From Chrysophaeum taylorii (taxonomy: Eukaryota; Sar; Pelagophyceae; Pelagomonadales; Pelagomonadaceae), in contig JAQMWT010000453.1 of the NCBI GenBank assembly GCA_029834535.1, positions 61,398-125,397 on the forward strand: a stretch of DNA of 64,000 nucleotides, in the 5' to 3' direction. Position 1 is the stretch's first letter. The number at the start of each line of letters is the position of its first letter. Below, one piece after another: positions 2,830 through 54,455 of this stretch. The notes beneath the pieces are model-generated. The model did not search any database, was not told the DNA's origin, and saw only the letters and a list, made by a program, of their open reading frames with translations. Both the position numbers and the translations under genes were made by a program.

Positions 2830-3109
2830 GCGCTGGCCGTCAATGAGAAAAGTGCACTGAGCGTCGACATCACGCTCGTGTCGCACACAAACTACAGGTC
2901 CATATCGAGAACGAGAGATAATCTAGTCGTAATTATTTACTCCGCGAAGAGCAGAGGCGCACATGGTGATTGTGGTTAGAGCGTGTAAAATAGCGACGAC
3001 GGACGAAAACAACAACCAATGTCCCTATCCTGTCGAAGAACGAGAGAGCGTACTCTTCTTCCTCTTCCCTTCTCAGACAAAGACGACGACGACGACGACG
3101 ACGGCCCTT

Positions 3110-3142
<33 letters not shown>

Positions 3143-18118: not shown

Positions 18119-18123
18119 GGAAG

Positions 18124-18525
18124 TGGAGAAATTTGACCCTCTCCGGGTACATGGTAGAGACTGCGTGCAGTCTTAGGCGTGTACAGACCATTCCGCTTGC
18201 CACATGCTACTACACAAGGTAGGGATTTAAGCCCTAACTCCTTAAGGACATTAGGTCCCATAGAAGCGTTTACACTGACAACGAGGAACGAAGCCTCTGT
18301 TAATTAAACAGAAAACCCCGTACCTGACGGTACGCACCTGGTGGCACCTACTCCATGTTGGAAAAGAGCTCCAGACTGGGTTCTTCATAGTCATGAAAAT
18401 ATAATTGCAGAAGGGTAAGGAAGGACAGGAGGAACGAGGGAAAGCCGTATTACGGAGAGAAAACCCTCGTGTAGAGATAGGTGCGAAATGTTCCAGTGTC
18501 GCACACATAATAGTGTAGCTCTCTG
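18124..18525 (-). repeat. 3' LTR of the methyltransferase copia element
   Basis: About 402 bp, matching 30099-30501 in the same orientation. The outer end has the canonical CA (TG on the plus strand at 18124-18125) next to target duplication GGAAG. Most differences from the other LTR cluster at about 18340-18450. Confidence 0.92.
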
Positions 18526-18540
18526 GTCCCCCTCAACGTG
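18526..18540 (-). promoter_or_regulatory. Candidate polypurine tract
   Basis: On the minus strand the bases directly before the 3' LTR read as a purine run with five consecutive Gs (GAGGGGGA), as expected for the plus-strand DNA primer of reverse transcription. Confidence 0.65.
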
Positions 18541-20653: not shown

Positions 20654-20721
20654 CGTAAAAAGAATATCCACATCACATCTTCCATTGCATTTCACATTTT
20701 AGCGAGCCAGTATTCCTTTGC

Positions 20722-21013
20722 TAACTAACTAACTAACTTCAGACCTCTCCCGAGCATGGGAGCCAGGCCGGACCGACAGAAGCCAGTCCGGAATCACGGG
20801 CCTGTAGACGAGGAGCGCCGAAAGGTCGGTCGGCGGAGAGTGACCATCAAGCTTGTCGCAATGCGACGAGGAGACCGCGATGTGACTGACAACCAACTCG
20901 CCGATAACCTTCCGTCTTCGCCCCCGGCCATACCCCGTCCCACTGCGAACGTTCCGGTTGCCAACCGGCCCGCCCGGGAGGCGAATAGGTGCCAACCTAC
21001 GCCGGGAGGGCGG
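20722..21013 (-). mobile_element. 292-bp SINE-like insertion with 10-bp target duplication
   Basis: A GC-rich block inside the AT-rich copia element, flanked by the direct repeat ATTCCTTTGC at 20712-20721 and 21014-21023. On the minus strand its 3' end is a tail of about four GTTA repeats (20722-20738), as in some LINE/SINE retroposons. No terminal inverted repeats were seen, which argues against a DNA transposon. A 39-nt core recurs at 636-674. It interrupts the last codons of the RNase H frame. No clear tRNA-type A/B box was found, so it could instead be the 3' end of a LINE. Confidence 0.6.
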
Positions 21014-21023
21014 ATTCCTTTGC

Positions 21024-22244
21024 ATAGCAGGGCTAGTTTAAAGTCATAACGGACATAACGAAGGGTAAGGATTAACCATCTTGTTGAGCTATGGGTTGTT
21101 GTAAACCGAGTAACGTGCGAAATCTGCTGAAGAGCGGAGCTCCAAAGGGGTTTAGTAATTCCATCGGCGATATTTTGGGTACCGGAAACATGATGTAGAC
21201 GTATACGTTTTAACTGTACGTAGTCGCGAATACGGAACCATCGTACGTAGTCGCGAATACGGAACCATCGTGTGCTGATAGCTTTGGCCATAGTCGCATT
21301 GTCGGGGTTGTTGGAAAGACGAATAGCAGAGGCAGAGTCTCCCAGTATAGGACTGTTACGTATGAAAGACATGTCCGATGGGAGGGGATTGTCGTGAGCA
21401 TCATAATCTAGTAGCAAGTCTTTCCCTGAAGGTTGGCGGAGATGGAAGTGAGGATTTATAGCGAATGCCATTTCTGTTAACAATTTGCGTAACCAGACCA
21501 CATCATCGGCACACATATTAAGGGCGATAAGTTCACTCTCATGCGTAGGAGTAGCTGTAATAGGTGCAACTTAGACTTCCAAGTGATGAGAGAACCAAAC
21601 AAAAAGATAGCATAGCCGGATGTAGATATGCGGTCTTGTTCATAAGAGGGTGCATTATCGGCATCGACGAACGCGACCAGTGGATCAAAATTACCTGAAT
21701 TAACTTGTTCTTTAGTGTAATCCAACATGGTGGCCATGTCAGTACGATTACCGATAAGAAGTCGAAGATGGTCCATTAGAGCGGAAGAGCCAGAGTAGTA
21801 CCAGAGGCGAAGATTACGATTTTCGGGCTTGCGCAAGTAGCGGAGCGTTCCTGTTAGTACTTGAACATGTAGAAAGGCTGGATTGTGCATTCCTCGAGAG
21901 CAACGACTAAGACTTTGTGATAGATCGGGGCGACAGGCCAATTGGACGAACGTGAGCTTGCCGAGTAGAGTAGAGCAGGTGTGAAGGATGAACTTGTCCA
22001 TATCAGAAGATGGCCCTCCAGTTTTATACGTGGTTGATGGTGACATCGGTGTGGAAGTGGGACGTAGCTGCATTAAAATGGGGTACTCTTCGAACAATGC
22101 ATCAAGTTTAGCCTGACAGTCCAGTGATATAGAACCATCAGTTGTACGCGTTATGCGCATGCCTAGGAGAGTATGGACTTCCTCGAAGGTGTCGACTGAG
22201 TATTCCTTTTTCAGGGCTTGCTGGAACTCATGACGTAGAGTTTC
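21024..22244 (-). pseudogene. Copia RNase H region
   Basis: Continuation of pol after the TAG at 22245-22247. The connection region (LLGKLTFVQLACRPDLS, about 22040-21930) and the RNase H start (VAFVDADNAP, near 21670) are recognisable. A frameshift near 21500 moves to a second frame containing DSASAIRLSNNP and HHVSGTQNIADGITKPL, the usual copia RNase H end. A 27-bp in-frame tandem duplication (about 21217-21270) repeats a nine-residue RWFRIRDYV unit. The C-terminus is displaced by the SINE-like insertion. Confidence 0.85.
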
Positions 22245-23178
22245 CTAAGTGCAAGTAATGACGACGTCGTCTACTGAGAGCGTGCAAATTAGAAATGTAG
22301 CGTCAGCTTGGACTTTGGCGTAAATGCATGTGTCTGTTCGAAATCGAGTATAGCCTAATGAATCAAAGAAGCCGTTCATGGTTTGATTCCAAGGGGCAGG
22401 GCTCTGACGTAATCCATAGAGAGATTTAAGTAGCTTTGGGAGACGACGGCCTTGGTATTTAGTATCTTCGGGATCGAGAAGGTAAATGCCTTGTGGCAGT
22501 TTGACATAGACATGAGAATCGATGGGAGCTTGAACAAAAGCGTTAGGGACGTCGACATGGTAGACGGGAAGTCGCAGATGAGCTGCTAGCGCCAGAACAC
22601 AACGGATGCCAGTAAGCTGTGCCATAGGGCTGAATGTGTTGAAAAAAATCGGTGCCCAGAGAGGCTAAGAATCCTCGTAGGACCAGGCGTGCTTTATGTT
22701 TAATGTACTGACCAGCAGCGTTGGTTTTTATACGTAGGACGAGGCGGGTGTCAATAGGCTTTGAGTTGACCATTGGCAGCGCTAGTTTAAAGCAGCCAAA
22801 CTTAACAATATCAAAAATCTCCTTGGAGATGGCAGCAACATAAGCTTTGCGATCAGCGTCTGAGAGACCTTTGAGGCAGTTCAACTCATATTCATCAATT
22901 TTGATATCTTTGGCTTGAATCTTGTATTCGTCCGAACCAACCGTGCTGGGGTCATGAGTCGTCGTCAGATGAGTAATTGCGTAAGAAGCGACATTATCGT
23001 GCAGATGAGTGTGATCAGGATCTTCGACGAGTTGAACAACTAGTAGAGGAGTATCACCAAGGTGGGTCTCAATGTAATGCGATTGCACGGTGATATAGTC
23101 TTCGATGGCGGAGAGATGAGGCTCGGAGGCACCATAAGAAGCGTCATTATGATCCAAAACGGAGTGGGGCGTGAACAA
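22245..23178 (-). pseudogene. Copia reverse transcriptase, frameshifted
   Basis: Two overlapping frames carry the RT: 23178-22543 has the N-terminal fingers with KHKARLVLRGF, and 22625-22245 has VDVPNAFVQAPIDSHVYVKL, SLYGLRQSPAPWNQ and the catalytic SVDDVV (usually YVDD). The shift falls near 22600. A TAG at 22245-22247 follows the palm. RT copies the element RNA to DNA in virus-like particles. This copy cannot make a full enzyme as it stands. Confidence 0.88.
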
Positions 23179-23231
23179 AGCATAAGCATATTGAGCGGGA
23201 GGAACTTGAAAGGCGTGAGCATGTTCAGAAA

Positions 23232-25298
23232 TTAAATGAACGAGGGCTTGAGGAGGTGAAAGTCTGCAAGGTTGGTGTCGTCGCAGAAGTGAGCATGAGG
23301 AGCATCAGGCGATGGGTGGCTATGGCTCCTATGACACATAACTGAAGAGGACTGTGAGATCGCTTGGTGCACATGGTGATGAAGGGATGGTGTAAATTCC
23401 CCCTCTGGTGGTACAGCCGTCCAGTGGATGCCATGAGCAAGATGAAGGGAGTGGAGGGTGGGGTCGCAGAAGGTTATGTACTGCTTGGAGAGGTCATACT
23501 TGAAGTCGGCAAGCGTACCACCGGCTTGTTTATAAGTGGCAACAGTAGGCGAGGCAATACGAGTAAGAACATCCTTGAGATTGGTTTTGCGAAGAGGCTG
23601 AGGGTGATGAGGACCACGGGTGAGACGTAGGACATCCTGGGAATAGAGAGACCGATAAGATGGTAAAAGTGGCAAAGTGTTGGAAGACACGTCAGATGTA
23701 GGTGTGGTGGCGGAAGTGGCGGGTGCAGAAGCAGCTGGAGCACATGCGGGAGCGGGAGAGGGAGCATGGAAATGAGAAGAAGAAGTCCCCCTCTCATGGT
23801 TAGTGTCGGTAGGCATAGCATTCCCCCTCTGCGCCGCATCATTGGGGGTGCTGTGAACAGAGAAGGGAATGTCGGGTGAAGGTGCGGGAGGTGGATGCTG
23901 TTCATAATCAGGAGGAGATTTAGAATTAAGATGAGAAAAAGTCAGTTTAGAGGAAACACGGACTTGACCATTTTCGGGATTAAGGACAACATCGGCTAAA
24001 TGATTAACATGGGGTGTTATTAAAGGGTTTATAACGTTAGCACCACATAAGTAGATGTAGGGACGACATCGGGGTTCATATTTATGAAATTCGTTAGGTT
24101 CCAAATGCAGATATCAAACAGAACCAAAAGGTTTGAGGTAGTCCTGTTGGGGAACATTACATTGGTCTAACAAAACTTGTTGGGGGCTTAGGACTTTATT
24201 GTAAATACGTTCGAGGGAAACGTTAGGGAGGAGATTATACGACTGGATGGCATGTATAACAGCCCACGGGTAGTGTGGTGCCGGATCTGTTCGGGGGTGA
24301 CCTTTATAGGATACATTAAACATATGCCGGAATCGTGTAGATGCGGCAGTGGCTATGTGACCAACAGCGGCTTCGACTTCATGATTAAAGACATGTAAGT
24401 AAGGGGGGGACGCGGACATATTAATACCATGCTCCACACGGAAGGGGGTTGTAACATGCTGAGATAAATAGGGTTTAAAGGAATCAAAATAGATTTGTTT
24501 TAGTTGTACACGAACATAAGTAGAGCAAAAGTTGCGGACAAACTCAAGGGCGTTACAAAATTCACTGGAGTTAGTGCTACGACAAAAGTACACTAACGAA
24601 AATTTAGAAATGAGCCATTTAAAAACAATGATATGTCGAAAGGATCCCCATTCAGAGAGAACGGATACGTAGTCACCGTCACATGCCCAGGCTTCACCAG
24701 CTTGAAAAACTTTTTCGAATGATGGTTGCTTGGTAAGGTGACGTGGATGAGGAAAGCGTTTTTTATGAATCGTACAATCCACACAGAACTTACGGTAGGG
24801 TACGTCAGATGGGTGGTGTCCAGGACTGGCAATAACATGAACAGCTTTTATAGCCTGAGAATCACTAGAATGGTGGATGTTGTGAAAATTGGTGGCTCGT
24901 TGTTGCGCATTTTGAAATGCGAGGGTGCCTCTGGCATAAACTTTCTTATCGAAGGGCGCATGCTTCTCGTGGAGCTGACTTGGCGTTATAAGAGGAATGT
25001 GTTTTTCTTTAGTAGGAGATGATGTATCTGCGGATGAGGTGTTAGAGAGGAAGACATGAGCTACTGAATCGAGATGAAAAGATGGAAGTTCGTGGTTAGA
25101 GGCAGGATTATCACAACATGAAAGTTTTTTATTGGAGATGTAGAACATTGTAATGGAACTCTGGTGTAATAATAAGGATGTATCTGTTAGGAATATATTT
25201 GTGAAGAAGGTTGACCTATAGTTTTTGGTTAGAGAGGCATGATCAGGGTCAAACGATGGTGATAGCGTAATTTGCGCAAGTCGTAGACAAGCTGACAC
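23232..25298 (-). pseudogene. Copia integrase with SH3-like C-terminal domain
   Basis: One frame, broken by a TGA at 24114-24116. It holds a HHCC-like zinc-binding segment ending FCVDCTIHKK (about 24770) and a core with D (ACDGDYVSV), D (IYFDSFKPY) and E (FNHEVEAAVG), the DDE triad that joins cDNA to the genome. The TGA falls in the SH3-like 'PFG' segment just before HLEPNEFHKYEPR. A Ser/Pro-rich linker then leads to RT. The core is more divergent than usual copia integrases. Confidence 0.8.
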
Positions 25299-27027
25299 AA
25301 ATGTTTATAGATTATATGATATGTTCCAGCTGGAATAGCATTCGCGATTATATCACAGCATAGGCCCGGGGACAAAGACAGAAGAAAATTGACTTGGTAC
25401 GCTGTGAAGTTATTGGCGCGTGCCAATTCGCGAGTTGAGTAGTGTCGGATGCGATCGAGTCGTGGATCGTAAACGAGCACATTAGCAAGTCCACGAATGG
25501 TAGGAGTAGGAGTGTACATAGAATGAACTTTGGCACCCATCTTCCTATCGCTTGAGGTAATAAAGCCCGGGTATCTGCGTTGGGACAGATGCATGTTATT
25601 TAAGCAAACATTTTATCGATAAATTCGAGACGATTTTCCTGAGGGTAGAACACAAAAGAATCGTGAAATACAGGAGAAGTATAGGGAACCAGTGCTTGTA
25701 CTAAACGACGCGTGTCTTGATTAACGACGCGTGTCTTGATTTTCATTATTATTATGGTTTGCTTGGCAAAGCCAAAGAAAACCAGCAACAGGTTCGAGAG
25801 AAGCAGTCTTATCGATTCCGGCATCATGTGTTAGGAAGGTATAGGTTTCGCCAAAAGCATTTATATTTGCCTGGTATTTAGAAGAGGAGTTAGAAACTGT
25901 TATGTCTCCGCCTGTATTCTTCCACCGGTGACGTAAATGATGGAGGAAGTAGAGGATTTATTTAAAAATAACCTATGAGATGGTTGGTTAGGTTCGATAG
26001 TTGTAATACGAAAGGACATAGGTAATGTGATAGATTTAGGGAATAAGCGTCCCATAATATTATAGAGGAGCACGAAAGCTTTGAGTTCAATAGGGGATCT
26101 CATGCAAGCAAGTGGTTTTCTTGAATTAGTCAAGAATCCCAGGCGAAAGTTAGAAATGTCCTCCATTTCATCTTGACTGGGATGTTCGACTGTTTTATTA
26201 GAGTGCAGACGAAGGAACAGCATAGTTAAGGTTTCAAGCTCAGTCACAGTTAAGCGCACGGATCCTGTACGACTGAAAATATTGTAGGTTTTAGGTGTGG
26301 ACACGAATGGTATGTCAGGAAAGACCTGCGTCCAAGGTTCGTCGACTATTAACTTGCGACTGATGGAATTAGCGTGGTCTGCAATGTCCAGAAAGGAAGT
26401 GACTCGTTTATTAGGCCATGAAAGCAGATCAAGAGGGCCGGTGTTATATTTGCGTGCGACGAGGATCCATCTTTCTCTGACTTGATAAGCTCCACATAGA
26501 TAGCATGGAAGTCGATCACATATGTCCACCGTATAGTGCATCGTTGCGAAGATGAGATTAGCAAATCGTATATGATCTTCATACGATGCGGAGTGTGGTG
26601 GTGTCATTTCCATGAAAAGAACGAGCGGCTTTAAAAGCTCAAGTACACTTAGAGCACTTGGAAACAAGGAATCGTCCATATCACGCTCGAAGGTGGAAAT
26701 GGATCTCCCATTGATTATGTTGCGATTTGTGCATGGTGATGTCAATTCCACGATATCGGTGTAATATCGTGCACGTTCAACGTCCGATGCTCGATGGAGG
26801 TATGTCAGAAACTTAGGTAGGGATGGGAAAACTTCGATGGAATTACCAAAACGTCTTCGTAGCATGTGCGTGATATTGTCATCGCTCTCAACAAGAACTT
26901 TAACGTTGATGTTGATTTGCAAGTCATTAGAAGCGCAAGCCAAGAATGCAGGAGCGGACATCCCAGAGCAAAGTAGAGTTACAGTAGGTGTTCGTGGGCT
27001 AGGAGACGAAGTTACTGTGTGAAGCAA
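25229..27027 (-). pseudogene. C5-cytosine DNA methyltransferase domain captured in copia pol
   Basis: Located between protease and integrase. Cytosine-C5 methyltransferase motifs occur in canonical order: motif I VTLLCSGMSAPAFLA (AdoMet binding, about 26982-26938), motif IV with the catalytic cysteine in ELTSPCTNRN (Cys codon 26731-26733), motif VI FMEMTPP (Glu retained where ENV is usual, near 26610), motif VIII YQVRERWILVARK (about 26487-26449), a target-recognition region with TPTIRG, motif IX RHYSTRELARANNF (about 25447-25406) and motif X IANAIP (about 25351-25334). Such enzymes transfer a methyl group from AdoMet to cytosine C5 in DNA. The first four motifs continue the gag-protease frame across stops; a TAA at 25900, a 20-bp tandem duplication (about 25702-25741) and frameshifts separate them from motifs IX-X. 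The assignment as a methyltransferase is strong; activity of this copy is not expected. Confidence 0.88.
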
Positions 27028-27045
27028 TCGTGTGGTAACCTTGCG

Positions 27046-27720
27046 TCATACGGGAGGTGGGAAATGCTTGCGTATGTAAGGCAGCTGCGAATGCATTGAC
27101 TCCAGGATGGTTTTAAGCCATGGGACGTAAATTACGCGTTCCATGAGGGTGGAATATAGTTTAAGCATTTCGCGTTGTTCATTAAAAGCACATAGTCTGA
27201 ACTGTAGTGAGCGAAGTTCCATTTTACGCGCTTTTGCTTGTTGTAGCGAATAAATTGGTAGAGTTGGCAACAGGTTACTGAGTCTAAACAAAGTAATCTT
27301 GACATTATCATCAATTTTACTCTGGATAGATGATTGTCCTTTAAATTCAACTCCATAAAGATGTATACCAAGTTAATCTTCTCCCCATTGAGTCATACTG
27401 ATGATGTGCAGATCGGGATCGTTATGGTCGTTTTGCTTGGGTAGAAAAAGTGCAACGTCTAGCTTTACATATCCCACATTCGGATGCTTTGGGAGAGCGG
27501 GAATGACGGTCCTTATAATCATAGCATGTGTGATTCTCTGCGTATCCGTAGCAGTCTGGATAGCAGGTGACAAGGACTCGGGTAGCTTTACGATGTGAAT
27601 AGGATCAGCATAACGTTTAAAGTTGATTACATGTTGAGAAGCACATGTGTCAGCATATCCTGGCGTAGACATTAGCGGCAAATTGCACTCGTTGTACAAT
27701 TTAAGCATTGTTGCACAACA
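27046..27720 (-). pseudogene. Copia aspartic protease
   Basis: The segment YADTCASQHV (Asp codon near 27651) matches the copia protease active site, normally D-[ST]-G-A-[ST]; here Cys replaces Gly. A TAA at 27373-27375 and a TGA at 27046-27048 interrupt the frame without shifting it. The hydrophobic GIHLYGVEFK block after the first stop resembles the second half of the protease fold. The enzyme would process the Gag-Pol polyprotein. Confidence 0.65.
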
Positions 27721-29550
27721 GGCATGTGTTGAGCTTTGACCAAACACGTACTGTGTCATGAAACTTTGCGTTTGTTCGGAAGGCACAACGACGAGTGTAA
27801 AACCAGTATATAATTTTGGTAGCAACACAGGGGGATCTGTGCCATCTTCATTATCTTCGTTGGGTGGATTATTGGGGAGCTCAGAGTGCGAGGAAGTTTC
27901 CCGAGCTTGACGACGAACGATAGCATTCTGAGCTTTAACATTTATGTGCTGCAATAGCGGCTGAGGGATGTTATCGATTTCATCATCTTTAATGGACAGA
28001 AAAGTGTGGAACATTTTCTCTGTATCAGCAGCCCCCCTCTGCTCCGCATCACTGGAGGACGCTTCAGGAGCAGATGTTTCAGTTTGATACTTTTCTTCTG
28101 AAATATGAGATTCCTTATCGGCTTCTAAGAGGCTCACAATGGTATTGGACATAGTATCAACTCGAGATAAGTAGAGATGAACTTGGGTGGCTTCGTCAGG
28201 ATCTAAGGACTGTGTCGAAGCTTGAGAAGCGGTTGTCCAGAGGGTACTCAGTAAGCTTTTCATTTCCTCCTGTACCATTTTAGAGTCGGCAGAGGGGTTG
28301 GGATTCGCTTCCTGTAATTTACCAAACAGGTGGCGAAGACGATCAACTTGATAAGTAGCCCGGTCCATAAGAGACATATTAGAGCGTGCATTACGGTTAG
28401 AGGAGGGTGAGTAGACAGGACGATCGAAGCTGTTACCTTTGACGTTATAATTTGAAGGTGGACGATAGTACGACGTGTCACGAGGTAAAATTGTCTATGC
28501 TTTATCTTTTGCATTACGAAGCTTGCGAGCGTTGAAGCCAGACTGTCCAGCTACAGTAGCTAACAACGAGTAAGCGTTGTTAAGAGAGTCGTGGGATTGA
28601 TGAATAGTATCCATCAATAATACCTTAGGTGGCTTGGTAGCGGTATTACCAGGGATGTAAGGGATCCAGGAAGCGGGTTTATCCAAGCGTCGGTTAGAGG
28701 AAAACTTTGTTTCATTGTATACCTTTAACAAGAACTCCAATAACGGACGAACGTCGTTAGGATCAACTAGCTTTAACAATTCAGGATCGTGAATCGAGTT
28801 GTTCCCAGAGCGTGTCTCGTAGAGTTTACACCATTCCAATAAAGATTGAGAATAGCGTTCGTGATCCGAGGGATTAGCATATAGAGGGTAGATCTCCTCG
28901 TGAGCTTTAAGAGTGATTATGGAGTTATTAAATTGGATTGATGCTTCGTCATTATTTAATTATTTTGCCTGAGATTGGAAGGCAAGGAGTTGTTCGACAA
29001 ATACATGGGCATACCAATTAACATTTAAAGACATTCGATTAAACTGAGATTTAAGCTCAGTAACATCTGTACATGACACTGTCTCATAGTAAAGGTAAGC
29101 TAAAAGCATTGCTGCACGTAGTTTATTAGGATGTACAGTAAGTGCACAAATCTTCTTTAATTGAGGCCACCTAGCGAGTGCGGGTTTTTCTTGTGATTCC
29201 AAGTTAAAGAATGTGTACAAGAAACCAGCATAAGTTTCGCAGTGTTTGATCCAGTCGGCATTAGAGAGACCTGTAAAGGATATGCTAGCTAGAGATGAAT
29301 CATACACAGTTGATTTAGGGAGTCGGGTATCTAACAAAGTGAGGACACGTTTAAAATCCTCATTTAATTCGGGACGAACGAGATTATATGACTCTTGGTA
29401 GTAAAGTCGTTCGAGATTATTTCGAACATCGACTGATAGTTGATGGGAAGAGTTGACGTGCCAAGTCTTTAAATGTTCGGGCAGGGCATCTTCATTAACG
29501 CAGATGTAATTCGTTAATTTTCTCGGATATCCATCTTGAAAAGATGGCAT
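27721..29550 (-). pseudogene. Copia gag-like region, stop-interrupted
   Basis: A single frame runs from 29550 to the protease, broken only by TAA at 28960-28962 and TAG at 28495-28497; codons on both sides of each stop read as continuous protein. The N-terminal part is helical and Leu/Tyr-rich, like copia capsid (UBN2-type) domains. I saw no CCHC zinc knuckle. The region before the protease is acidic and Ser/Gln-rich. It would form the virus-like particle shell. Confidence 0.65.
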
Positions 29551-30084
29551 CTACTTCGTTATCAAGGATTTGGCTGTATTCCGGAGCATTCCGGATATTG
29601 GTATTTTTAGGAGAAGTATCGTGGCTGATCAAGGTAGGTTAGAGGATTGATAGACAGATTCGACAAATAAGAATGAAGGGCTTCTTGAGTGCGGGTGATA
29701 TGTACAGTACGCTATTTTAAACGTGGACTTATTTACAAGACCAAACAAATCAACATGCTATTTAAAACAGGATGACTTGAGACTGAAGAATGGATTAATT
29801 CTCGAGCAGCCAGTCTTTTGTTGGGGAATGGAAGGGAAAACCCGTACAAGTTTCCGCGGCTTATATAGGAAAAATTTTAATTTTATTAGCTATGCGAGTG
29901 CATATGACCAGTGACCGATCCAACTCGGTCACAAACCAAATTAACTGGTGGGCATATACCGTCACATAACAAATATGTACAGTAGACCACCACCAAACAC
30001 ATTGTCGCATTGTACTCGTGATCAGGCGTAAATTGATCACTCGATTTATACGTACAACACAGTTGGGCTGACAAACCTACGCAT
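29551..30084 (-). other. Untranslated leader of the copia element
   Basis: About 530 bp between the primer-binding site and the first gag codon. No gene is seen; it probably includes RNA packaging signals. Confidence 0.5.
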
Positions 30085-30098
30085 CTGGGCCCATAACC
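30085..30098 (-). promoter_or_regulatory. Primer-binding site matching initiator tRNA-Met anticodon arm
   Basis: Directly next to the 5' LTR end. The plus strand reads CTGGGCCCATAACC, the sequence of the anticodon stem-loop (anticodon CAT) of eukaryotic initiator tRNA-Met; the element RNA is therefore complementary to it over 14 nt. Priming from an internal tRNA fragment, not the 3' CCA end, is known for Drosophila copia and yeast Ty5. This fixes the LTR boundary at 30099. Confidence 0.85.
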
Positions 30099-30501
30099 TG
30101 GAGAGATTTGACCCTCTCCGGTTACATGGTAGAGACTGCGTGCAGTCTTAGGCGTGTACAGACCATTCCGCTTGCCACATGCTACTACACAAGGTAGGGA
30201 TTTAAGCCCTAACTCCTTAAGGACATTAGGTCCCATAGAAGCGTTTACACTGACAACGAGGAACGAAGCCTCTGTTAATTAAACAGAAAACCCCGTACCT
30301 GACGGTACGCACCTGGGGGCCTACTCCATGTTGAAAAAGAGCTTCGGACTGGGTTCTTCCATAGTCATGAAAATATAATTGCGGAAGGGTAAGGAATGAC
30401 AGGAGGAAAGAGGGAAAGCCGTATTACGGAGAGAAAACCCTCGTGTAGAGATAGGTGTGAAATGTTCCAGTGTCGCACACATAATAGTGTAGCTCTCTGG
30501 A
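30099..30501 (-). repeat. 5' LTR of the methyltransferase copia element
   Basis: Matches 18124-18525. It starts (minus strand) next to the target duplication at 30502-30506 and ends with CA beside the primer-binding site. It should carry promoter and polyadenylation signals, which I could not pinpoint. Confidence 0.92.
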
Positions 30502-30506
30502 GGAAG

Positions 30507-30910: not shown

Positions 30911-31696
30911 TTATCTCCAGCGACTCCACGCGAGAGAGGGGAGTCTGGCGGGGCCGAGCGCCTCGCGCAACGGCGATCGGAGCGGGAGGCCAACGTCGTC
31001 GTCGTCGTCGTGAGATAGTCCATTGGAGAATGGGCGGGCGGCGAAGAGGACTTGGTTCTTAGGCGTGAGGTGTGCGGGAAGGAAGTGGGATACGACGTCG
31101 TAGCCGTGGTCTGTCATAAAAGCACATCTGGTCCTGTCGATGTCGTCGAGACGGTCGACTCGGACAGGGAGGCGATACCCTCGGAGCGAATGGCAGCAGG
31201 GCACGACGGCGGCGTGGGCTCGGCCGTCGACGGCAGCGAGAAGAACGTCATCGGTGAGGCCTCCGCAGGCATGGAGCGCGACCACCAAAGCGTGAGGCCC
31301 GAGGCTCAGGTCTTCGGCCCGCGCCTCGAGGTAGCGATGCCGCGATCCAAGGCCGGGCCATTCCCTGCCGAACGCGTCGCGCAACGTCGCGGCCGACTTG
31401 GGAATTCTGGGGTCCACGGCAAAACAGCGAGTCTGGGACGTCATAACGAGCAAAAACCACCCCAAGAGGCCGTGCCCGCCGCAGACGTCGACGACCACGC
31501 GCGGCGCCATTGCTCGCGAGAAAAAGTGCTCGTGGATCGCAGCGGCGCAAGCCCAATTCTCGTACAACTCCTTCTTCGCGACGCACTGCGCGCCACACAC
31601 CACGCGCGCCGACCGGTCGAACAGCGACTCGCTTTCGAACCGCCGCAGGTCGCTCAATCCCAATCGCCTTCGACCGGCGTACCCATCAAGACGCAT
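30911..31696 (-). CDS. METTL25/RRNAD1-type methyltransferase domain protein
   Basis: 261 residues, ATG at 31694-31696. AdoMet motif I is VVVDVCGGHGLLGWFL (about 67-82), and VVALHACGGLTDDVL (about 136-150) with PCCHS (about 172) matches the Methyltransf_32 family, whose 'LHaCG' and 'PCCH' blocks are characteristic. Family members include METTL25 and the bacterial-type rRNA/tRNA methyltransferase-like proteins; the substrate is not known from sequence. It ends in an Asp-run and an Arg-containing tail. No intron or targeting signal is evident. Confidence 0.82.
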   Translation of the reverse strand: MRLDGYAGRRRLGLSDLRRFESESLFDRSARVVCGAQCVAKKELYENWACAAAIHEHFFSRAMAPRVVVDVCGGHGLLGWFLLVMTSQTRCFAVDPRIPKSAATLRDAFGREWPGLGSRHRYLEARAEDLSLGPHALVVALHACGGLTDDVLLAAVDGRAHAAVVPCCHSLRGYRLPVRVDRLDDIDRTRCAFMTDHGYDVVSHFLPAHLTPKNQVLFAARPFSNGLSHDDDDDVGLPLRSPLREALGPARLPSLAWSRWR

Positions 31697-32926
31697 TTTC
31701 GCCCCTTGGGCGAAAAAATGCGGCTAGTGGTAGCAAGCGTAGCGGCGGTAAAAAGGAATCGATCGGCTTCTAGATCTCCGGACCAGCCTGACGCCCCAAT
31801 TCCGCCATGTAAGGGCTTAACGCCACGGCAACGTCGTCGTTGCCCTCGACCCTCCCATTGCTCAGCGCATAGCCGACCCTAATTGGCGACGGATGGGTGC
31901 TTGAAATGTCACCGATAGATACTCTACAGCAGTAACGCGCCTCTTTCGCACCCTCGTCATCGCCTTCCATCGTGGTGACCTCCTCACCATGCGCAAAATT
32001 GCGGACCCTCCCACCAGCGTACTGGACGATGGGCGCTTTGCGCCGCGCACGCGCGGAGAGCAGGCTCTCCCAATGGACCTGCAATACAATCATCGCATTG
32101 GTGATGGGCACCGAGCCTTCCAGCCCCTATCCCATCCTTGCCTTTTCCTCTATTTTCCCATCTCCTCCCTTCATGTAATACCCCGCCTCTTTGCGCCCAT
32201 CTTCCACCCAGTCTCATTCCTCAGCGTCAGCGTCTTCGCCGTCCCTGAAACTTTCTTCGGGCCACAAGGGCCCTCCTTTTTCAATGAAGCATATCATTCT
32301 CTTCTCTCTCCTGCTTGCTCCCTCGAAACAAAACGAAAAGCCACCGGCGTCTTCCGGCTGCTGCGGGAGAGAGATAGTCGCCCCGGGTCCGGGGAAACGA
32401 TCGAAACACGCACGTACCCCGACGAGCACGAATCTAGGGTGTTCAAGTTGCGAACCAGAGTGTGCACTATACACAGTCGCGCGCACACGCCCTCAATATT
32501 CCACGATGTAACTCATGTCCCCAAAAGCAAGGTACGCATTGAATGTGACCCACCACCTTGCGAAAGCACGCACGACTGCGGGGAGACTAAAAGCGCGTTT
32601 TATAGAACGTCGAGAGCACGACGCGAGTACTTGCGCTGCGTGTCCATTTTCCGAGATAAAAGTGGGACCACACACCTCGCAGTAAGCCCGACTAGTTGCG
32701 GTTACCTACGCCCGTTTGACGCCGATCCCGGCGCAAAGAGTCAAAGCAAAAAAAATGGGCTTGTTAAGTTAGATGTAACGATCCACATGGAGGGGATGTG
32801 CAACAAACCAAAGCCCAAAGAGGCACAAGCGGGCACGCCGGAAAAGCAGTAGCTCGTCCCTACGTTCGTGCGAAGCACAAGGGGAGAAGGAGACCCTCTA
32901 TATTCACTTGGGCACGTTGTCATGAT
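31697..32926. other. 1.2-kb intergenic with one doubtful ORF
   Basis: A plus-strand frame (ATG at 31989, stop by 32852, 287 codons) is open, but its sequence shows no domain, no coherent hydrophobic pattern and uneven composition, so I do not call it as a gene. Otherwise nothing is seen except probable 3' and 5' UTRs of the flanking minus-strand genes. Confidence 0.4.
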
Positions 32927-43758: not shown

Positions 43759-44209
43759 GCCTCCAGACGCAGTAGACCTACCACTTAAAGAGACCGGCGC
43801 CGCTCGTTTTCGTCGCTTCTGCGCAGGCGCGGTCGACGACTTGTATGAATACGGCGGTTGTTGTCTTGGAGGAGGAGGACTGTTCGCGTTGCCGCGTCGC
43901 GATCTTGAATGAGTCGACCTAGGAAAGACGCTGCCTCCTATACAACTAGAATGTCGGCGGTGGTAGTGTGTCGTTGACCACCACCAAAAGTCTTGACTCC
44001 CCCCCTATTATTATTACAACCGGCTACTAGGCACAATGTATCCGTACGATATCTGAAAGTAATTACAATTTATAGGACACATATTGAAAGCATATTAAAT
44101 GGTAAAACTCGATGATGAGGAGTAACAACTTTGTGTACTAACTAATCAAACGTTTACTTCGGACAACAAGGATTCGTCCCGCGCTAAGCGCCGGGACGCG
44201 TCGGGGAAG
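43397..44209. repeat. AT-rich intergenic with TTTA/TTTAT tract
   Basis: No supported gene. About 43622-43758 is a nearly pure tract of TTTA and TTTAT units, preceded by three copies of a TCTAATCATT-like 10-mer. This contrasts sharply with the GC-rich genes on both sides. Confidence 0.6.
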
Positions 44210-46033
44210 ATGAACAGCAAGGCAGACAAGCGTGCAAAGCTCGCCCAGAAGGCTCTGACGATCGAGGATGTGTGGGAGTCCATCTCGAGCGCCCAGGGCG
44301 AAATGAACCCGGCGCCGTCAAGAACGGTGCTGACGCCACGGTCGGCCGAGGCGTGCTTGAAGCACGGGGTGAACCCCGAAGTGCTGCGCGTGCGACCGCT
44401 CGAGAGTTTCGCCGAGTCCGGGTTGGATCCGACAATCCAGCGGCTGCGGCACGAGGCGTACACGCAGCGACGGTTCGAGTTAATGCGGCTGGTGCGGGGA
44501 GAGCGAAAACGGCTCGTGAATGCCGAGGAGCGGGAGGCGGGCCTCGCTGGAAAGAAGAGCGCAAAGTTCACGCCCGAACAGATCATCGCGCAGCAGGCCA
44601 AGCAGAATGCGACGTTTTTGGAGGAAGAGGAGAAGCGCATGGCCAAGATGCGCAAGAGGCAGGAGAAGGAATTGGAACAGATGCTGGCGTTCGAGGCGAA
44701 GATGCAGGAGATTCAGAACGAGCGGGACCGGCGCATCGAGGAGGACCAAAGAAAACAGGAGGTGATACGATATCAAAAAGAGAAGCGGGCCAAGCAGATG
44801 GCCGAGGAGAATCGGTTGCGCGAGATGAAGAAGGCGAGCCAGGCGGAGGCCGAGGAACAGCGACGCCTGGCGCAAGTGCGCGCCATGTTCGAGAGGGAGA
44901 AGCAGCTGCGGCTCGACCGCGAGGCCAAGGAACGCAAGGCAAAGCACGAGGCTCGACTCAAAGACGAAGAGCGCATCCGCAAGCAGGAGGAACACCGGCT
45001 CCAGACGCAGCGCATCCTGTCCGAGCAACAGGCGGCGATCCGGAAGCGAATGGAGGACATGGAGCTCGCCGAAAAAGAGCGCCAGGCGCTCGTCGCGCGG
45101 AAACGCGACGAGGAGCATAAACGGCTCGAACTCCGGCGGTCGCAGATTGACGCGAGGCTGCAGCGGAACATGCGACAGGCCGAGAAGCTCGAGCAGCGGC
45201 GGCGCGATCAGTTCTTCCAAAAGGAACGCGAGCACGAGACGCTTCGGCGGCAACACCTCGAGATGCAAGCCCGCGAGCGGTCGCTCCAGGAGCACCAGGC
45301 GGCGCTCCAGGAGCAGCGCCGCAAGATGGTGCTCGAGCAGACGAAGCGCGACGAGGAGCGACGAAAGGAAGAGTTGTTGGGCAAGTTCGAGCACGAAGCG
45401 GTCAACGCGCGTCGCGTCCGCGAGGCCCGCGAGCGCGATCTGAGTATCGCCCACGAGAAGAAGCTCTTGCGGAATCAGCTCAAGCTGGAGAACGTCGAGC
45501 GCATCCGCCGGATTTCCGAGTACCGTCGGCTCGAGTACGCCCGAAAGATCAACGTAGCCGACAAGCGGACCGAGAAGATGATCGAGCGCAAAAAGCACCT
45601 CATAATGATGCGGAAGGAGAACGCCCTCAAAGTCAAGGTCCGGAAAGACAGGCTGGTCCAGGTCATGGAGGAGGCCAGGTCGAGCGGCACGCGGGCGACC
45701 AAGCTCATCCAGAATTCAGTTAAGGAGTTTGCTTCTTCTTCTTCTTCCTCGACACCCCGGTCGAGCGTTTCGGCGAGTGGCAAGGCGAAGAAGACGAAGC
45801 GATCATCGCCGAAGAAACGCGGCGCTTCTTCCGAACCCCTCGGCGCGACGCGGTCGCAGAGCGCCTCGGCGCTGCACGCGGAGGCCAAGACGGCGGCCCT
45901 CGGGCCGCCGCCACCCGAGCCGCCCACGAGGCCCAGGCATCTCCAGGACCAGAACAAAGAGATGGAACCACAGCAGCTGCCGTACATCTCGCCCTACGAC
46001 CCCAGCCACCCCTCGAGGACCGTCACGTTCTGA
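44210..46033 (+). CDS. CCDC177-like long coiled-coil protein
   Basis: 607 residues, ATG at 44210; the upstream in-frame sequence has no earlier ATG before a stop. The head (about 35-90) has LTPRSAEACLKHGVNPEVL and DPTIQRLRHEAYTQRR, a block shared with CCDC177-type proteins of animals and protists. Residues about 95-510 are almost continuous Glu/Lys/Arg/Gln-rich coiled coil (many EEEKRM, QRRL and REKQ heptads). The tail is Ser/Pro-rich and disordered. Its partner and cell site are unknown; related proteins are often found in cilia or cytoskeleton, which is inference. Confidence 0.75.
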   Translation: MNSKADKRAKLAQKALTIEDVWESISSAQGEMNPAPSRTVLTPRSAEACLKHGVNPEVLRVRPLESFAESGLDPTIQRLRHEAYTQRRFELMRLVRGERKRLVNAEEREAGLAGKKSAKFTPEQIIAQQAKQNATFLEEEEKRMAKMRKRQEKELEQMLAFEAKMQEIQNERDRRIEEDQRKQEVIRYQKEKRAKQMAEENRLREMKKASQAEAEEQRRLAQVRAMFEREKQLRLDREAKERKAKHEARLKDEERIRKQEEHRLQTQRILSEQQAAIRKRMEDMELAEKERQALVARKRDEEHKRLELRRSQIDARLQRNMRQAEKLEQRRRDQFFQKEREHETLRRQHLEMQARERSLQEHQAALQEQRRKMVLEQTKRDEERRKEELLGKFEHEAVNARRVREARERDLSIAHEKKLLRNQLKLENVERIRRISEYRRLEYARKINVADKRTEKMIERKKHLIMMRKENALKVKVRKDRLVQVMEEARSSGTRATKLIQNSVKEFASSSSSSTPRSSVSASGKAKKTKRSSPKKRGASSEPLGATRSQSASALHAEAKTAALGPPPPEPPTRPRHLQDQNKEMEPQQLPYISPYDPSHPSRTVTF

Positions 46034-46133
46034 CGAGGTGCGGAGGCCACGCCCTCCACGCCACATTGACTCTTCTTTCTCTCCCTCGATTAAAAAAATG
46101 TTGCGCGCTTTCACGCACCAGCCGCAGACGCCG

Positions 46134-46168
46134 GCGTGTTTTTTTTTTTCCAAAAAAAAAAGACACGC
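46134..46168 (+). terminator. Near-perfect U/A hairpin in 3' region
   Basis: An inverted repeat with a 16-bp stem (one G-T wobble) and a 3-nt loop: GCGTGT then ten Ts on the left (46134-46149) pair with ten As then G-A-C-A-C-G-C-type bases on the right (46153-46168). It lies about 100 bp after the coiled-coil gene stop, so it may be a 3'-UTR RNA structure or a transcription-termination aid. Confidence 0.35.
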
Positions 46169-46398
46169 GCACACACGCCGCCCGCCGCGGGCGGCGGCCC
46201 GCGGTCGGGAGGTCCTTATCCCCGGCGGGCTCGCGTTCGCACCCCCTTCCTAATTAATAAGAATAAGCAGTCGACCTTTCAAATTACCCCAGCCTGTTAT
46301 TACTACTACTACTAGTACTACTACTACCACGGTTGTGACCACCCCCCCCCAGAACAAGCAACAAAAGGGGGGTGGGTTATTGTTATCCGGCGTGCACG

Positions 46399-49380
46399 AT
46401 GTCTGCTACTGCTGGAAAGCGCATTCCCCCCACCGTCAAGCCGACGAACTATGTCGCCGGGCTGGGTCGCGGTGCCGTCGGGTTCACGACGCGATCTGAC
46501 ATCGGTCCGGCTCGCGAGGCGCCCGCGCGGGCCGGTGGTCTACGGCCGGGCGAGGCCCCAGCCCCCGAGTCCGTGGTGGGTCGCGGGCACGGGGAGAGGA
46601 CGGACTTCGGGGAGGCGCCCGAGGGGTACGTCGCCGGGATGGGTCGTGGGATGGGTGAGATGGCGATGGCGCAGGGCGAGACGACCGCGATGAAGGAAAA
46701 GCTGGCGCGGGAGGACGCCGACCTGAACGAGTCGAATTTCGACCGGTTCGCGGGTTACGGCGGCGCCCTGTTCGAGAATTCGCCGTACGATGCGGACGAC
46801 CAGGAGGCCGACCGTATCTACGAGGCGATCGACGAGCGGATGGACTCGCGGCGGAAGCGAGCGCGCGAGGAGAAATTGTTGGAGACGATGAAGCGGTACC
46901 GCGAGGAGCGTCCGAAGATTAGCGATCAGTTCGCGGACCTCAAGCGCGAGCTCAAGGATGTCACGCGGGACGAGTGGGAGGGTATCCCGGACATCGGGGA
47001 CCAGTCGTTGCGGCACAAGCAGAAGAAGAGACCCGAGCGGTACACGCCGATGACGGACGAGATGATGGACGGGCTGCGAGCCAAGTCGTCGGCGGCGAGC
47101 TCGCTCGACCCGCGGCAGCAGGCGCACGGCGGGTTCGAGACGCCGCTGGCGGGGGGAACGCGGACGCCGATGGGCGGGTGGCGGACGCCGATGGTGCTCT
47201 CCGGAGGCGCGTCGACGGTCGCGGGGACGCTGACGACGTCGGGGCTCGCGGCCGCGCGCGGCACGGTGCTCGGGTTGCGGCTGGACAAGATGAGCGACTC
47301 GGTGACGGGGCAGACGGTCGTGGATCCCAAGGGGTACCTGACCGATCTGAACGCGATCAAGGTCAACACGGCGAGCGAGGTGGGGGACATCAAGAAGGCC
47401 CGGTTGTTGCTCAAGTCGGTGACGACGACCAACCCCAAGCACGCTCCGGGCTGGATAGCGGCGGCTCGAGTCGAGGAGATCGCGGGCAAGGCGATCGCCG
47501 CGCGGAAAATCATCCAGACGGGGTGCGAGGTGTGTCCCGACAGCGAGGACGTCTGGCTCGAAGCAGCGAGGCTGCAGTCGGGCCCGAACAACGCCAAAGC
47601 TGTCCTCGCGACGGCCGTCGCCAAGCTCCCGACGTCGACCAAGCTGTGGCTCGAAGCGGCGGCGCTCGAGGACGACGACCTGGACCGCAAGAAGGCCGTG
47701 CTCCGGCGCGCCCTCGAATTGGTGCCGTCGTCGGTCAAGCTGTGGCGCACGGCGATCGAGCTCGAAGACGTCGAGGACGCGCGGATCCTTCTGGGTCGCG
47801 CCGTCGAGTGCGTCCCGCACTCGGTCGACATGTGGCTCGCGCTCGCGCGCCTCGAGACCTACGAGAACGCGCGCCGCGTCCTCAACCAGGCGCGCGAGGC
47901 GATTCCGACGGACCCCGCCATCTGGCTGACGGCCGCCAAGCTCGAGGAGGCCCGCGGGAACGGTGCCGAGCTCGTCGAGCGCATCGTGTCCAAGGCCGTC
48001 TCGTCGCTCGCGTCGTACCAGGTCGTCATCGACCGCGACGCGTGGCTCCAGGAGGCCGAGGCCGCCGAGGCCGCGGCGGCCCCCCTGACGTGCGGGGCCG
48101 TCGTGCGCCACACGATCGGCCTCGGCGTCGAGGACGAGGACCGCCGCCGCACCTGGCTCGACGACGCCGACAACTGCGTCGCGCGCGGCTCGATCGAGAC
48201 CGGTCGCGCGATCCTCGCGCACGCCCTCGCCGCCTTTCCCAAGCACAAGACCGTCTGGCTGCGCGCGTGCGACCTCGAAAAGAAACATGGCTCCCGCGAG
48301 CAGTTGGAGGCCACCCTCGCCAAGGCGGTCTCCTCGTGCCCGCGCGCCGAGATTCTCTGGCTCATGGCCGCCAAGGAAAAGTGGCTCGCCGGCGACGTCG
48401 ACGGCGCTCGCGCGACACTCGTCGACGCCTTCGCCGCCAACCCCGACTCGGAGCAGGTCTGGCTCGCCGCCGTCAAGTTAGAATGGGAGAACGACGAGCC
48501 CGACCGCGCGAGAGCCCTCCTTTCCAAGGCGCGCGACAAGGCCTCCTCGCCGCGCGTCTGGATGAAGTCGGCCCTTCTCGAACGCGAGCGCGGCAACTAC
48601 GACGCCGAGATCTCTCTCGTCGACGAGGCAATCGAAAAATATCCGACCTTTGCGAAATTCTACATGATGGCTGGCCAGGCCCGCCAACGCCGCGGCGACG
48701 ACGACGCGCTCGTCGCGGCCGCCCGCGACGTCTACCGGCGCGGCGTCCAACGCTGCCCCAAGTCGGCCCCGCTCTGGAAGCTCGCCGCCGCGCTCGAGGA
48801 GCGCGCCTTCGGACCCACCAAGGCACGATCCATCCTCGAGCTCGCGCGACTCAAAAACCCGAAGATGCCGGAACTTTGGCTCGCATCCATAAGGCTCGAA
48901 CGACGCCACGACAACCGCAAGCTCGCCGACAACCTGAGCGCCAAGGCTATCCAGGAATGCCCCGACGCGGGCGAACTCTGGGCCGACGACATTTCCAACG
49001 CCCCAAAGCCCCAGCGCAAAGCCCGGAGCCTCGAGGCCCTCAAACGCTGCGACCAAAACCCTCACGTTATCGTCGCCGTCGCGAATCTCTTCTCGCAAGA
49101 ACAAAAGAGCGCCAAGGCCAGAAAGTGGTTCAACAGAGCCGTCGCCCTCGACCCCGACCTCGGCGACGCCTGGGCTAACTACTACGCCTTCGAGCTCCAG
49201 GACGGCACCCACGACCAGCAGCAAGACGTCAAAACCCGCTGCGTGGCTGCCGACCCAGCGCACGGCGAACTCTGGACGGCCGTCTCGAAACACCCACCCC
49301 ACGCTCGCGCCGATACCGCCACCAAGCTCGACCTCGTCGCGCGAAATATCCTTCACCAAGCAGACTTCGACCACGCCTGA
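46399..49380 (+). CDS. PRPF6: PRPF6/Prp6, U5 snRNP pre-mRNA splicing factor
   Basis: 993 residues, ATG at 46399. The N-terminal PRP1-N domain (about 15-150) has NYVAGLGRGAVGFTTRSDIG and, partly repeated, GYVAGMGRGMGEM; then ADRIYEAIDERMDSRRKR (about 135-152). The region 270-990 is a run of HAT/TPR helical repeats with W-x-x-A-A-x-x-E pattern (for example WLEAARLQ, WLTAAKLE, WLAAVKLE). Prp6 bridges U5 and U4/U6 snRNPs in the tri-snRNP, so a working spliceosome is expected. Its length is close to the family norm (about 900-950). No intron is needed. Confidence 0.95.
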   Translation: MSATAGKRIPPTVKPTNYVAGLGRGAVGFTTRSDIGPAREAPARAGGLRPGEAPAPESVVGRGHGERTDFGEAPEGYVAGMGRGMGEMAMAQGETTAMKEKLAREDADLNESNFDRFAGYGGALFENSPYDADDQEADRIYEAIDERMDSRRKRAREEKLLETMKRYREERPKISDQFADLKRELKDVTRDEWEGIPDIGDQSLRHKQKKRPERYTPMTDEMMDGLRAKSSAASSLDPRQQAHGGFETPLAGGTRTPMGGWRTPMVLSGGASTVAGTLTTSGLAAARGTVLGLRLDKMSDSVTGQTVVDPKGYLTDLNAIKVNTASEVGDIKKARLLLKSVTTTNPKHAPGWIAAARVEEIAGKAIAARKIIQTGCEVCPDSEDVWLEAARLQSGPNNAKAVLATAVAKLPTSTKLWLEAAALEDDDLDRKKAVLRRALELVPSSVKLWRTAIELEDVEDARILLGRAVECVPHSVDMWLALARLETYENARRVLNQAREAIPTDPAIWLTAAKLEEARGNGAELVERIVSKAVSSLASYQVVIDRDAWLQEAEAAEAAAAPLTCGAVVRHTIGLGVEDEDRRRTWLDDADNCVARGSIETGRAILAHALAAFPKHKTVWLRACDLEKKHGSREQLEATLAKAVSSCPRAEILWLMAAKEKWLAGDVDGARATLVDAFAANPDSEQVWLAAVKLEWENDEPDRARALLSKARDKASSPRVWMKSALLERERGNYDAEISLVDEAIEKYPTFAKFYMMAGQARQRRGDDDALVAAARDVYRRGVQRCPKSAPLWKLAAALEERAFGPTKARSILELARLKNPKMPELWLASIRLERRHDNRKLADNLSAKAIQECPDAGELWADDISNAPKPQRKARSLEALKRCDQNPHVIVAVANLFSQEQKSAKARKWFNRAVALDPDLGDAWANYYAFELQDGTHDQQQDVKTRCVAADPAHGELWTAVSKHPPHARADTATKLDLVARNILHQADFDHA

Positions 49381-50391
49381 ATGTAAAACTCAACGGTTAA
49401 CGTACCAGCCGTGTTTAGGAGTCAGGTGAAAGGAGTCAGGTGAAAAGGGCGGAGCGTGCGCTGACAAAAGCAGCTTAGATTAGCGGGGGTCCGAGCGTCC
49501 TTCGAGCGGAAAGGGAAACTGGGGCGAGGAAGGACGTTGACGGAAGCCGATTGTAGGGGACGGCCGAGCGCGAGCCTAACCGTCCGGGCGCCGCCGCCAG
49601 GGACCCGGCGGCCGGGAGACGTAGGGGCCGTTGGCGTTTTTGTAAGCGTCTCGGCGCTCCTTGAAGTGCGCCTGCGCGTGATGCCGATGCTGGAGGTGGG
49701 CGGTGGCTGAACCGCCTTCGACATACCGTAGGCCAGCTAGGAGGAGGCGACGGGCACGAGGGGGTTAGGGAGTAAACTCATATAAGGAACTTGTGGGCGG
49801 GGCGGGCATGGATGGAGGGCAGATCAGAGCGTTGAGCGAGGCGAGAGCGGAGGGGGTCGGTGTTGCCAACAGCAGCACGGAAGCGTTGGAGATAGCAGCG
49901 CAGGAGCACGCAGGGCGGGGGGACTGCCGGGGAGGGTTGGGGCGACAGGGTCCCCGCGGGCGGTAGGCCCAGAGAAAGGCCGTCGCCGAGCCGGCAGACG
50001 CAACGACGAGGGCCCTTGCTTTTTCTTATTCAATTCTATATATTGTTTTACAAGGCGGCAGATAGAACGGGTGCAGGGCGGCGAGAAGGGGTTCGAGAAA
50101 GTGTGAGTAGAGGCAATAATAGACACTGATGATACGCAGTGGGTGGTACCAGCATCAGTGGGTGGTCTATTACCTGGGAGCCGGATGTGCCTCGTGGCCA
50201 AATCATCATCGCGGTCATCGCCGAGCCGTGGGGCAGGCGATGAGAGGAGGGGGTCAAGGAGGGAGAAAGTCTTCCTAACTACTAATCGACAGATGTTTGT
50301 CTGTTTGTTTGTCTGTCTGTCTGTCCCTCGATTTAGGGTAAGGATCAGGTAGGCGCGAGAGTAAGGATCAGGTAGGCGCGAGAACCAGACA

Positions 50392-51411: not shown

Positions 51412-52090
51412 GTGATCCTCCAAGCCGTCTACGGTGACCTCGCAGACTATTTCCACGACCCGCGGCGGCTCTTTCAGCGCGCCATTCTCACGCCCCGTCG
51501 AAACGATGCTGTCGATGCTGACAACGCGCGCATGACCGCGGCCTTTTTTTCCCGGAGACGAGGCGTCGGAGTTCTTTTCGGCCGACTAGGTTGGGTCGGA
51601 AGCCGACGCCGCGGCGGCTATTCGATGCTGACAACGCGCGCATGACCGCGGCCTTTTTTTCCCGGAGACGAGGCGTCGGAGTTCTTTTCGGCCGACTAGG
51701 TTGGGTCGGAAGACGACGCCTCGCTCTCAAGAGTCGAGTTTTGAACTCCCTGACAACCAACGGCATGCTGACTTTGATCGCGAGCTTAAAGTCTTCGCAA
51801 CCTCGACCCGTCGCACGGCCACTGCATCGGTACCAGATACATGATCGATCGTGTCGTTGTCACCGAGGCTCCTCCAACCTGTATCCCGTAAGGCCCGCCG
51901 ACGCCAAACGATCACCAAGAGCCAGGGCCAGACGCCCCGCGAGGTCGGCGTCCTCTTGGCGAAGCCCGTCTTCTGCCACGTCCATCTCTACGTGGCTCTC
52001 TGTCGATCGGCAACCCCGAGAATATCCTCTTCTGAGTCGACGACTCCACCCTACCCCACACGTGCTGCGCAATACCGATAAGCCCCCTCC
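51412..52090 (+). pseudogene. Helitron helicase C-terminal fragment, copy 2
   Basis: Second copy of the preceding fragment with the same blocks (for example KSQGQTPREVGVLLAKP near 51918-51968), differing by a few substitutions and by an internal duplication of about 120 bp. Together they show that the helicase end was amplified as part of a tandem array. Confidence 0.75.
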
Positions 52091-54353: not shown

Positions 54354-54455
54354 CAGGTGCTGGAAAAGAAAGAAAAGGAAAAAGGGGTAAGTGAGGTCCT
54401 CACACAGGTGCTGGAAAAAGAAAGAAAAGGAAAAAGGGGTAAGTGAGATCCTCAC

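Follow-up and report, generated by a model that had tools for sequence, protein, structure and literature searches.

The 64,000-nucleotide stretch of DNA analysed here (contig JAQMWT010000453.1, positions 61,398 to 125,397; hereafter the window, in whose own numbering all positions are given) comes from the pelagophyte alga Chrysophaeum taylorii and holds, on its minus strand, a long terminal repeat (LTR) retrotransposon of the Ty1/copia group with a methyltransferase-like domain between its protease and its integrase, an anatomy of which we are very confident. We propose, at a probability of about 0.7, that a Ty1/copia lineage captured a C5-cytosine methyltransferase, which it carries at this position and which methylates the element's own DNA. 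A first-pass annotation made from the sequence had spoken of an ochrophyte-like genome, and rightly so. The profile and sequence searches of the genome reported below covered 70.8 Mb in 697 contigs, and the DNMT2-type protein found there is 100% identical to CTAYLR_008533 of C. taylorii; the published assembly comprises 71 Mbp in 702 contigs (PMC10366177), and the terms "repeat", "transpos" and "copia" are absent from the accessible main text of that report. Methyltransferase-bearing Copia elements form at least three families in this one 71 Mb genome, which we call W (that of the window), A and B.

The window element is 12.4 kb long. Its LTRs (5' LTR, 30099..30501; 3' LTR, 18124..18526) align with 96.8% identity over 404 columns in a blastn self-match and are bounded by the target-site duplication CTTCC, read by eye from the aligned ends (30502..30506 on the 5' side and 18119..18123 on the 3' side). 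The interior runs from a gag-like and protease-like region through an in-frame TGA, the methyltransferase-like domain and the integrase region to a reverse transcriptase (RT) of the Copia type; the LTRs, the target-site duplication and an integrase upstream of a Copia-type RT are the marks of a Ty1/copia element. The gag-like region with its protease-like segment (27376..29550) has in-frame stops in this copy, and three such codons upstream of the TGA start at 28962, 28497 and 27375. A Pfam scan of the element gave no match for its gag, protease or RNase H segments, the labels of which are by eye; the protease motif reads ADTCAS in the window and is clearer, as DGGAS, in the family A copy L031. 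The integrase-bearing open reading frame (ORF; 24114..25304) is assigned by homology to the integrase part of L031, with which the W copy L064 shares 25% identity over 285 columns (E 6e-16); the rve match stays under its cutoff in L031 (E 0.0061) and in the family B copy L070, and sits upstream of the RT in both. The RT itself occupies two overlapping frames (22245..23304), with a match to RVT_2 (PF07727) at E 4.4e-4 in 22543-23304 and the remainder assigned by order and motif; the same profile gives E 1.6e-38 in L031 and 7.7e-42 in L070.

The methyltransferase-like domain is divided between two ORFs in the window copy. The longer (25900..27045) carries motif I (TVTLLCSG, 26962-26985), a II-like segment (VESDD, 26878-26892), motif IV (ELTSPCTNR, 26722-26748, with the Cys codon at 26731-26733), motif VI (FMEMTPPH, 26593-26616, in which the Glu is retained and the Asn of the usual ENV is substituted to give EMT), motif VIII (QVRERWILVARK, 26449-26484) and the region after it. 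The shorter (25229..25612), in a different frame, carries motif IX (RHYSTRELARANNF, 25406-25447) and motif X (IANAIPAG, 25325-25348). We take the motif names to apply to these segments, the assignment being by eye; the order characteristic of C5-methyltransferases (I, IV with its PC, VI, VIII, IX, X), which the first-pass annotation had read between protease and integrase, is found here on the minus strand, together with the II-like segment. Since all three long sister copies (L063, L064 and L065) read from before motif I through motif X into the integrase without a stop, the change of frame that puts motifs IX-X out of frame with I-VIII is a lesion, and the window copy is broken. In one W copy the Pro of motif IV is replaced.

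As the window copy on its own fails the Pfam cutoff, the identity of the domain rests on a profile test and on family A. Nine of 12 members of family A match PF00145 (best E 1.3e-8), L031 passing the cutoff with 34.1 bits, and both members scanned with TIGR00675 match it, below its curated cutoff of 100.65 bits. A profile built from seven W copies and one B copy was compared with a profile of 100 DNMT2-type proteins of 301-479 residues, drawn from 120 listed of 936 matches; it scored 33.0, which none of 200 column shuffles equalled (mean 17.7, maximum 28.7; reversed profile 16.0), a remote homology beyond chance. The family A profile scored 32.2 against the same DNMT2 profile, again with 0/200 shuffles equal to it. 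Aligned by MAFFT with 18 DNMT2-type proteins, motifs I, II, IV and VIII fall in register and motif VI is off by some columns. An AlphaFold model of window 26401-26994, supplied with the DNMT2 alignment (pLDDT 65, pTM 0.63), has among its best PDB matches DNMT3A, which ranks first, EhMeth, Dnmt2 and other class I methyltransferases (best E 5e-6), a result that is partly circular through that alignment; structure prediction from the single sequence gave pLDDT 36 and no usable model. It is very probable that the domain has the C5-methyltransferase fold. The W and B profile and that of family A are collinear over 422 columns, from motif IV to motif X, a span reached by 0/150 column shuffles (maximum 94) and 0/60 block shuffles (maximum 292), which makes it likely, but does not prove, that the domains of W/B and A share an origin.

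Other searches for relatives returned little. Sequence searches of the PDB gave nothing significant for the domain, profile A1 meeting a cytosine methyltransferase only at E 0.51; profiles A1 and A2 did not match each other, and single-sequence profile comparisons with the host DNMT5 and DNMT2 did not rise above shuffles. Among 5.8 billion proteins no relative was found of the family A region (7999 best candidates sharing 5-residue words, E up to 1e-3; the W domain was not searched there) or of the family B region (6071 candidates sharing 5-residue words, E up to 1), and viral_contigs held none with either the A or the B alignment; these negatives from the protein set and viral_contigs do not show absence elsewhere.

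The domain is a repeated property of these elements and occupies the same position across the families. Genome matches number at least 108 for W (108 of 1177 candidates), at least 79 for A (68 of 798) and at least 71 for B (66 of 1620); these are lower bounds, as the best candidates only were scored, and they count matches and not elements, some copies yielding two or more and the contig pairs C10/C297 and C25/C521 resembling duplicates. The family A copy L031 reads from protease to RT in one frame of 1952 residues. A frame of 1691 residues spans methyltransferase to RT in the family B copy L070, which aligns to W with 48% identity over 1035 columns and which, chosen by its RT, turned out to carry the methyltransferase domain (1/1). 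In 43 of 150 RT matches (of 1670 candidates), a W/B domain site stands 3.9-6.3 kb upstream on the same strand among the matches listed; an opposite-strand control gave 1, and at least 39 same-strand cases persist after 12 hand-picked UGA sites are dropped. The claim that the domain is a part of the polyprotein and not a nearby host gene holds: it is enclosed by LTRs, is read in the pol frame in sister copies and is present in high copy. As to whether other copies carry it, W, A and B copies have the domain fused to the integrase, and its constant presence is not established: the 43 of 150 RT matches are settled and the remaining 107 count as neither present nor absent, with no copy that lacks the domain and has a clean empty site found within that range.

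Purifying selection on the domain, for which a test of dN/dS below 1 had been suggested beforehand, is borne out. Medians were calculated by the Nei-Gojobori method, omitting pairs that were too short or had dS below 0.02 (at most 38/406, in the family A protease); the pairs are non-independent, and the W set deliberately includes three diverged copies. In family W, dN/dS is 0.073 over motifs I-VIII (8 copies, 28 pairs), 0.119 in the middle region, 0.100 over IX-X and 0.060 in the integrase (4 copies, 6 pairs). The family A values, raised by frame slips in some fragments (e.g., L054), are 0.210 over I-VIII (32 of 35 loci, 492 pairs; 0.168 for dS above 0.3), 0.293 in the middle region, 0.223 over IX-X, 0.198 in the protease and 0.124 in the integrase, so that the constraint on the methyltransferase of family A is near that on its protease. 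The Cys of motif IV is retained in 30/32 A and 8/8 W copies, the Glu of motif VI in 30/31 A and 8/8 W copies, and both Arg residues of motif VIII in all eight W copies.

In families W and B a stop codon stands directly before the methyltransferase. The first-pass annotation had motifs I-VIII continue the gag-protease frame; the frame is indeed the same, with an in-frame TGA (27046..27048; GTA TGA CGC AAG) intervening, which is a candidate readthrough stop. Comparison of copies finds it in all eight W copies read (the window and seven others), three of which are only 75-78% identical to L064 in protein, and in the sole B copy read; because other W copies share it, it is not a lesion. A search pattern that left the stop codon and two other positions free found 119 sites, and all 100 listed have TGA with variation at the other two positions; the pattern demanded CGCAAG after the codon, and copies altered there are uncounted. 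The residues after the UGA are non-conserved, and the nucleotide that follows it is C in 8/8 W copies and in the B copy, the junction of which reads UGA CUA. Both UGA-CUA and UGA-CGN are leaky stop contexts. The frame downstream of the UGA is open, and among the W and B copies read none has an intact upstream frame. Together these features of the sequence suggest stop-codon readthrough at a conserved UGA; the methyltransferase-like domain would then open the readthrough portion, parted by the UGA from gag-protease. A stem after the UGA was considered and dropped, as L066 and L067 do not preserve the pairing present in the window and L064. In L031 of family A, the gag ORF shares 37 nt (3097-3133) with a pol ORF in another frame, which suggests frameshifting in that family in place of the UGA.

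The scheme that we infer is as follows. A C5-cytosine methyltransferase would have been captured by a Ty1/copia lineage and have become fixed downstream of the protease and upstream of the integrase, in what was probably a single event that predates the split of W/B from A. Translation of W and B elements would mostly yield gag-protease, and occasional readthrough of UGA-C would yield a longer product with methyltransferase, integrase and RT that is brought into the particle. There, the enzyme would most likely methylate cytosines of the element's new DNA before or at integration, such that new copies arrive marked; the benefit may be self-restraint, host tolerance or protection of the cDNA. 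That the enzyme is active on the element's own DNA stands, in our estimate, at about even odds.

Several results weigh against the capture of an active DNA methyltransferase and against this scheme. The window ORF matches PF00145 at E 0.19 with 11.6 bits, the cutoff being 22; an absence of significant match to the C5-methyltransferase profile had been named beforehand as grounds for giving up the claim, and for this copy that is literally what was found, so that the claim lives on through the shuffle-tested W and B profile and through the sister family A, which passes. Two of six W members match PF00145 at E up to 1 (best 0.19), family B has no match to it, and none of the four W domains scanned matches NCBIfam. 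The score of the W and B profile against family A is not significant, being reached by 19/200, 10/150 and 15/60 shuffles. Neither W nor B retains the Asn of motif VI, and the integrase is more constrained than the methyltransferase in W and in A. CpG observed/expected is 0.96 in the element and 1.21-1.35 in the flanks, lower but not depleted, and the TG/CA ratio is 1.11 versus 0.86-0.95; these values would fit a mild loss of CpG through methylation, but host DNMT5 or base composition could account for them equally well. Lastly, no stimulatory RNA fold follows the UGA in any of the three sequences folded (z -0.31 to 0.59).

The high divergence of W and B, their loss of the motif VI Asn and their being missed by Pfam would fit a domain that is methyltransferase-derived and non-catalytic, kept for nucleic-acid binding, particle assembly or integrase steering. 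We regard this as unlikely, though it is the strongest of the rival readings of the domain, since the motif IV Cys, the VI Glu and the two VIII Arg persist in all eight W copies, and the Cys in 30/32 A copies, and since within the W domain constraint is tightest over motifs I-VIII. Less probable still is an enzyme that methylates RNA, be it that of the element or the primer tRNA, in the way that DNMT2 modifies tRNA; this reading draws on the DNMT2-type profile that was matched and on a putative initiator-tRNA primer site, but DNMT2 served as reference only because it was available, DNMT3A was the best match of the model made with the DNMT2 alignment, the single-sequence comparison with host DNMT2 and DNMT5 is uninformative, and the published retrotransposon enzymes act on DNA, according to the accessible text of PMC5890265. 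Chance resemblance of motifs, or a host gene beside or inserted in one element, could be argued from the sub-cutoff window ORF and from the lack of a PF00145 match in B. We reject both, considering them highly improbable, given the LTR enclosure, the at least 108 W matches, the copies of all three families in which the domain is fused to the integrase, and the profile score that no shuffle reached.

The junction admits a separate doubt, namely that ribosomes do not read through the UGA and methyltransferase-pol is made from another start or message, or that the UGA encodes selenocysteine. The missing RNA fold favors this, as does the Tca2 element, whose junction alone did not bring about readthrough in yeast and contains a minor promoter (PMC2194720, in the part accessible). 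That UGA-C is conserved and the residues behind it are not is more easily reconciled with a leaky stop than with a selenocysteine that the protein requires, and we hold these alternatives to be less likely than readthrough. A wider proposal is that retrotransposons supply the de novo cytosine methylation of the alga: provided that the host has no further enzyme for it, Copia Gag-Pol would mark the incoming cDNA and host DNMT5 would copy the marks onward. DNMT5 is known from other organisms to be a maintenance enzyme that lacks de novo activity. PF00145 (DNA_methylase) has 57 matches in the genome, and the 30 fetched are 28 family A copies and just two non-element loci, the DNMT2-type L001 and the DNMT5 L002; we consider the proposal a long shot. 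The DNMT5 gene (L002, G000:C621) was recognized by PDB 7r76 at E 3e-143, and the DNMT2-type gene (L001) is located at G000:C634.

A putative primer binding site (GGTTATGGGCCCAGA, 30084..30098) directly follows the 5' LTR and is presumably complementary to the anticodon arm of initiator tRNA-Met, and a purine tract (TTGAGGGGGA, 18527..18536), noted by eye, precedes the 3' LTR. The region downstream of the RT (21477..22244) is RNase H-like by position and by eye. A nested repeat of ~305 bp (20715..21024, no strand assigned) recurs in many family A loci at 91-98% identity, with one short match at 87%. In L031, a 218-bp unit stands in tandem (957-1391, 99.5% identical) just before the gag ORF. Outside the element, a host-type ORF on the minus strand (30911-31723; PF13679, Methyltransf_32, E 5.2e-11) lies ~400 bp from the edge of the 5' LTR. 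One 21-22 bp minisatellite unit, CAGAATGGCCCGTATCAACAT, occurs at 53940-54110, 58268-58395 and 61240-61323, inverted at the middle site, and strong strand asymmetry is seen in blocks at 44001-50000 and 52001-64000, the AT skew being at most 0.34 with its peak at 44001-46000.

Capture of cytosine methyltransferases by retrotransposons is itself already known, as the first-pass annotation had noted for Symbiodinium and Klebsormidium. In the accessible parts of de Mendoza et al. 2018 (PMC5890265), LINE, DIRS and Gypsy elements are described as carrying C5 methyltransferases, these enzymes can methylate CG de novo and are proposed to mark retrotranscribed DNA, and the Copia elements of Symbiodinium are stated to be without a DNMT domain; an excerpt of 2025 (PMC12344493) names "LTR Copia and DIRS" but cites the same work. 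The C. taylorii elements share with those cases an enzyme in the element's coding region, many copies and purifying selection. Among the closest is KnitGypsy-Dnmt3 of Klebsormidium nitens, in which, as far as that account goes, a C5 methyltransferase likewise lies within the Pol of an LTR element, in many copies and with Ka/Ks below 0.2; it is a Gypsy element with a recognizable Dnmt3 in a streptophyte, whereas here we have Copia elements in a stramenopile, a domain unassigned to any DNMT class and, in W and B, a UGA preceding the enzyme. Symbiodinium offers two further cases, SymbioDIRS-Dnmt3 and SymbioLINE-Dnmt, whose captured C5 methyltransferases, as described there, likewise belong to old retrotransposons with several families and high copy number, but of the DIRS and LINE kinds. 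Tca2 of Candida albicans (PMC2194720) has, from what is accessible of its description, an in-frame UGA between parts of the polyprotein, there between gag and pol and here after the protease, directly before the methyltransferase. In the open-licence papers searched, no stramenopile Copia with a C5 methyltransferase was found. What is new here is such a capture in Copia, in a stramenopile, and the conserved UGA before the enzyme.

These elements widen the known range of cytosine methyltransferase capture to Copia and to a stramenopile, and since a single 71 Mb genome has three or more diverged families with the domain, selection looks a better account of the trait than accident. The conserved UGA would set the amount of enzyme per particle. 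The alga is cultivated and sequenced, which makes self-marking by a retrotransposon testable, and should DNMT5 and DNMT2 prove to be the only host enzymes of this kind, the finding bears on the source of de novo methylation in such lineages.

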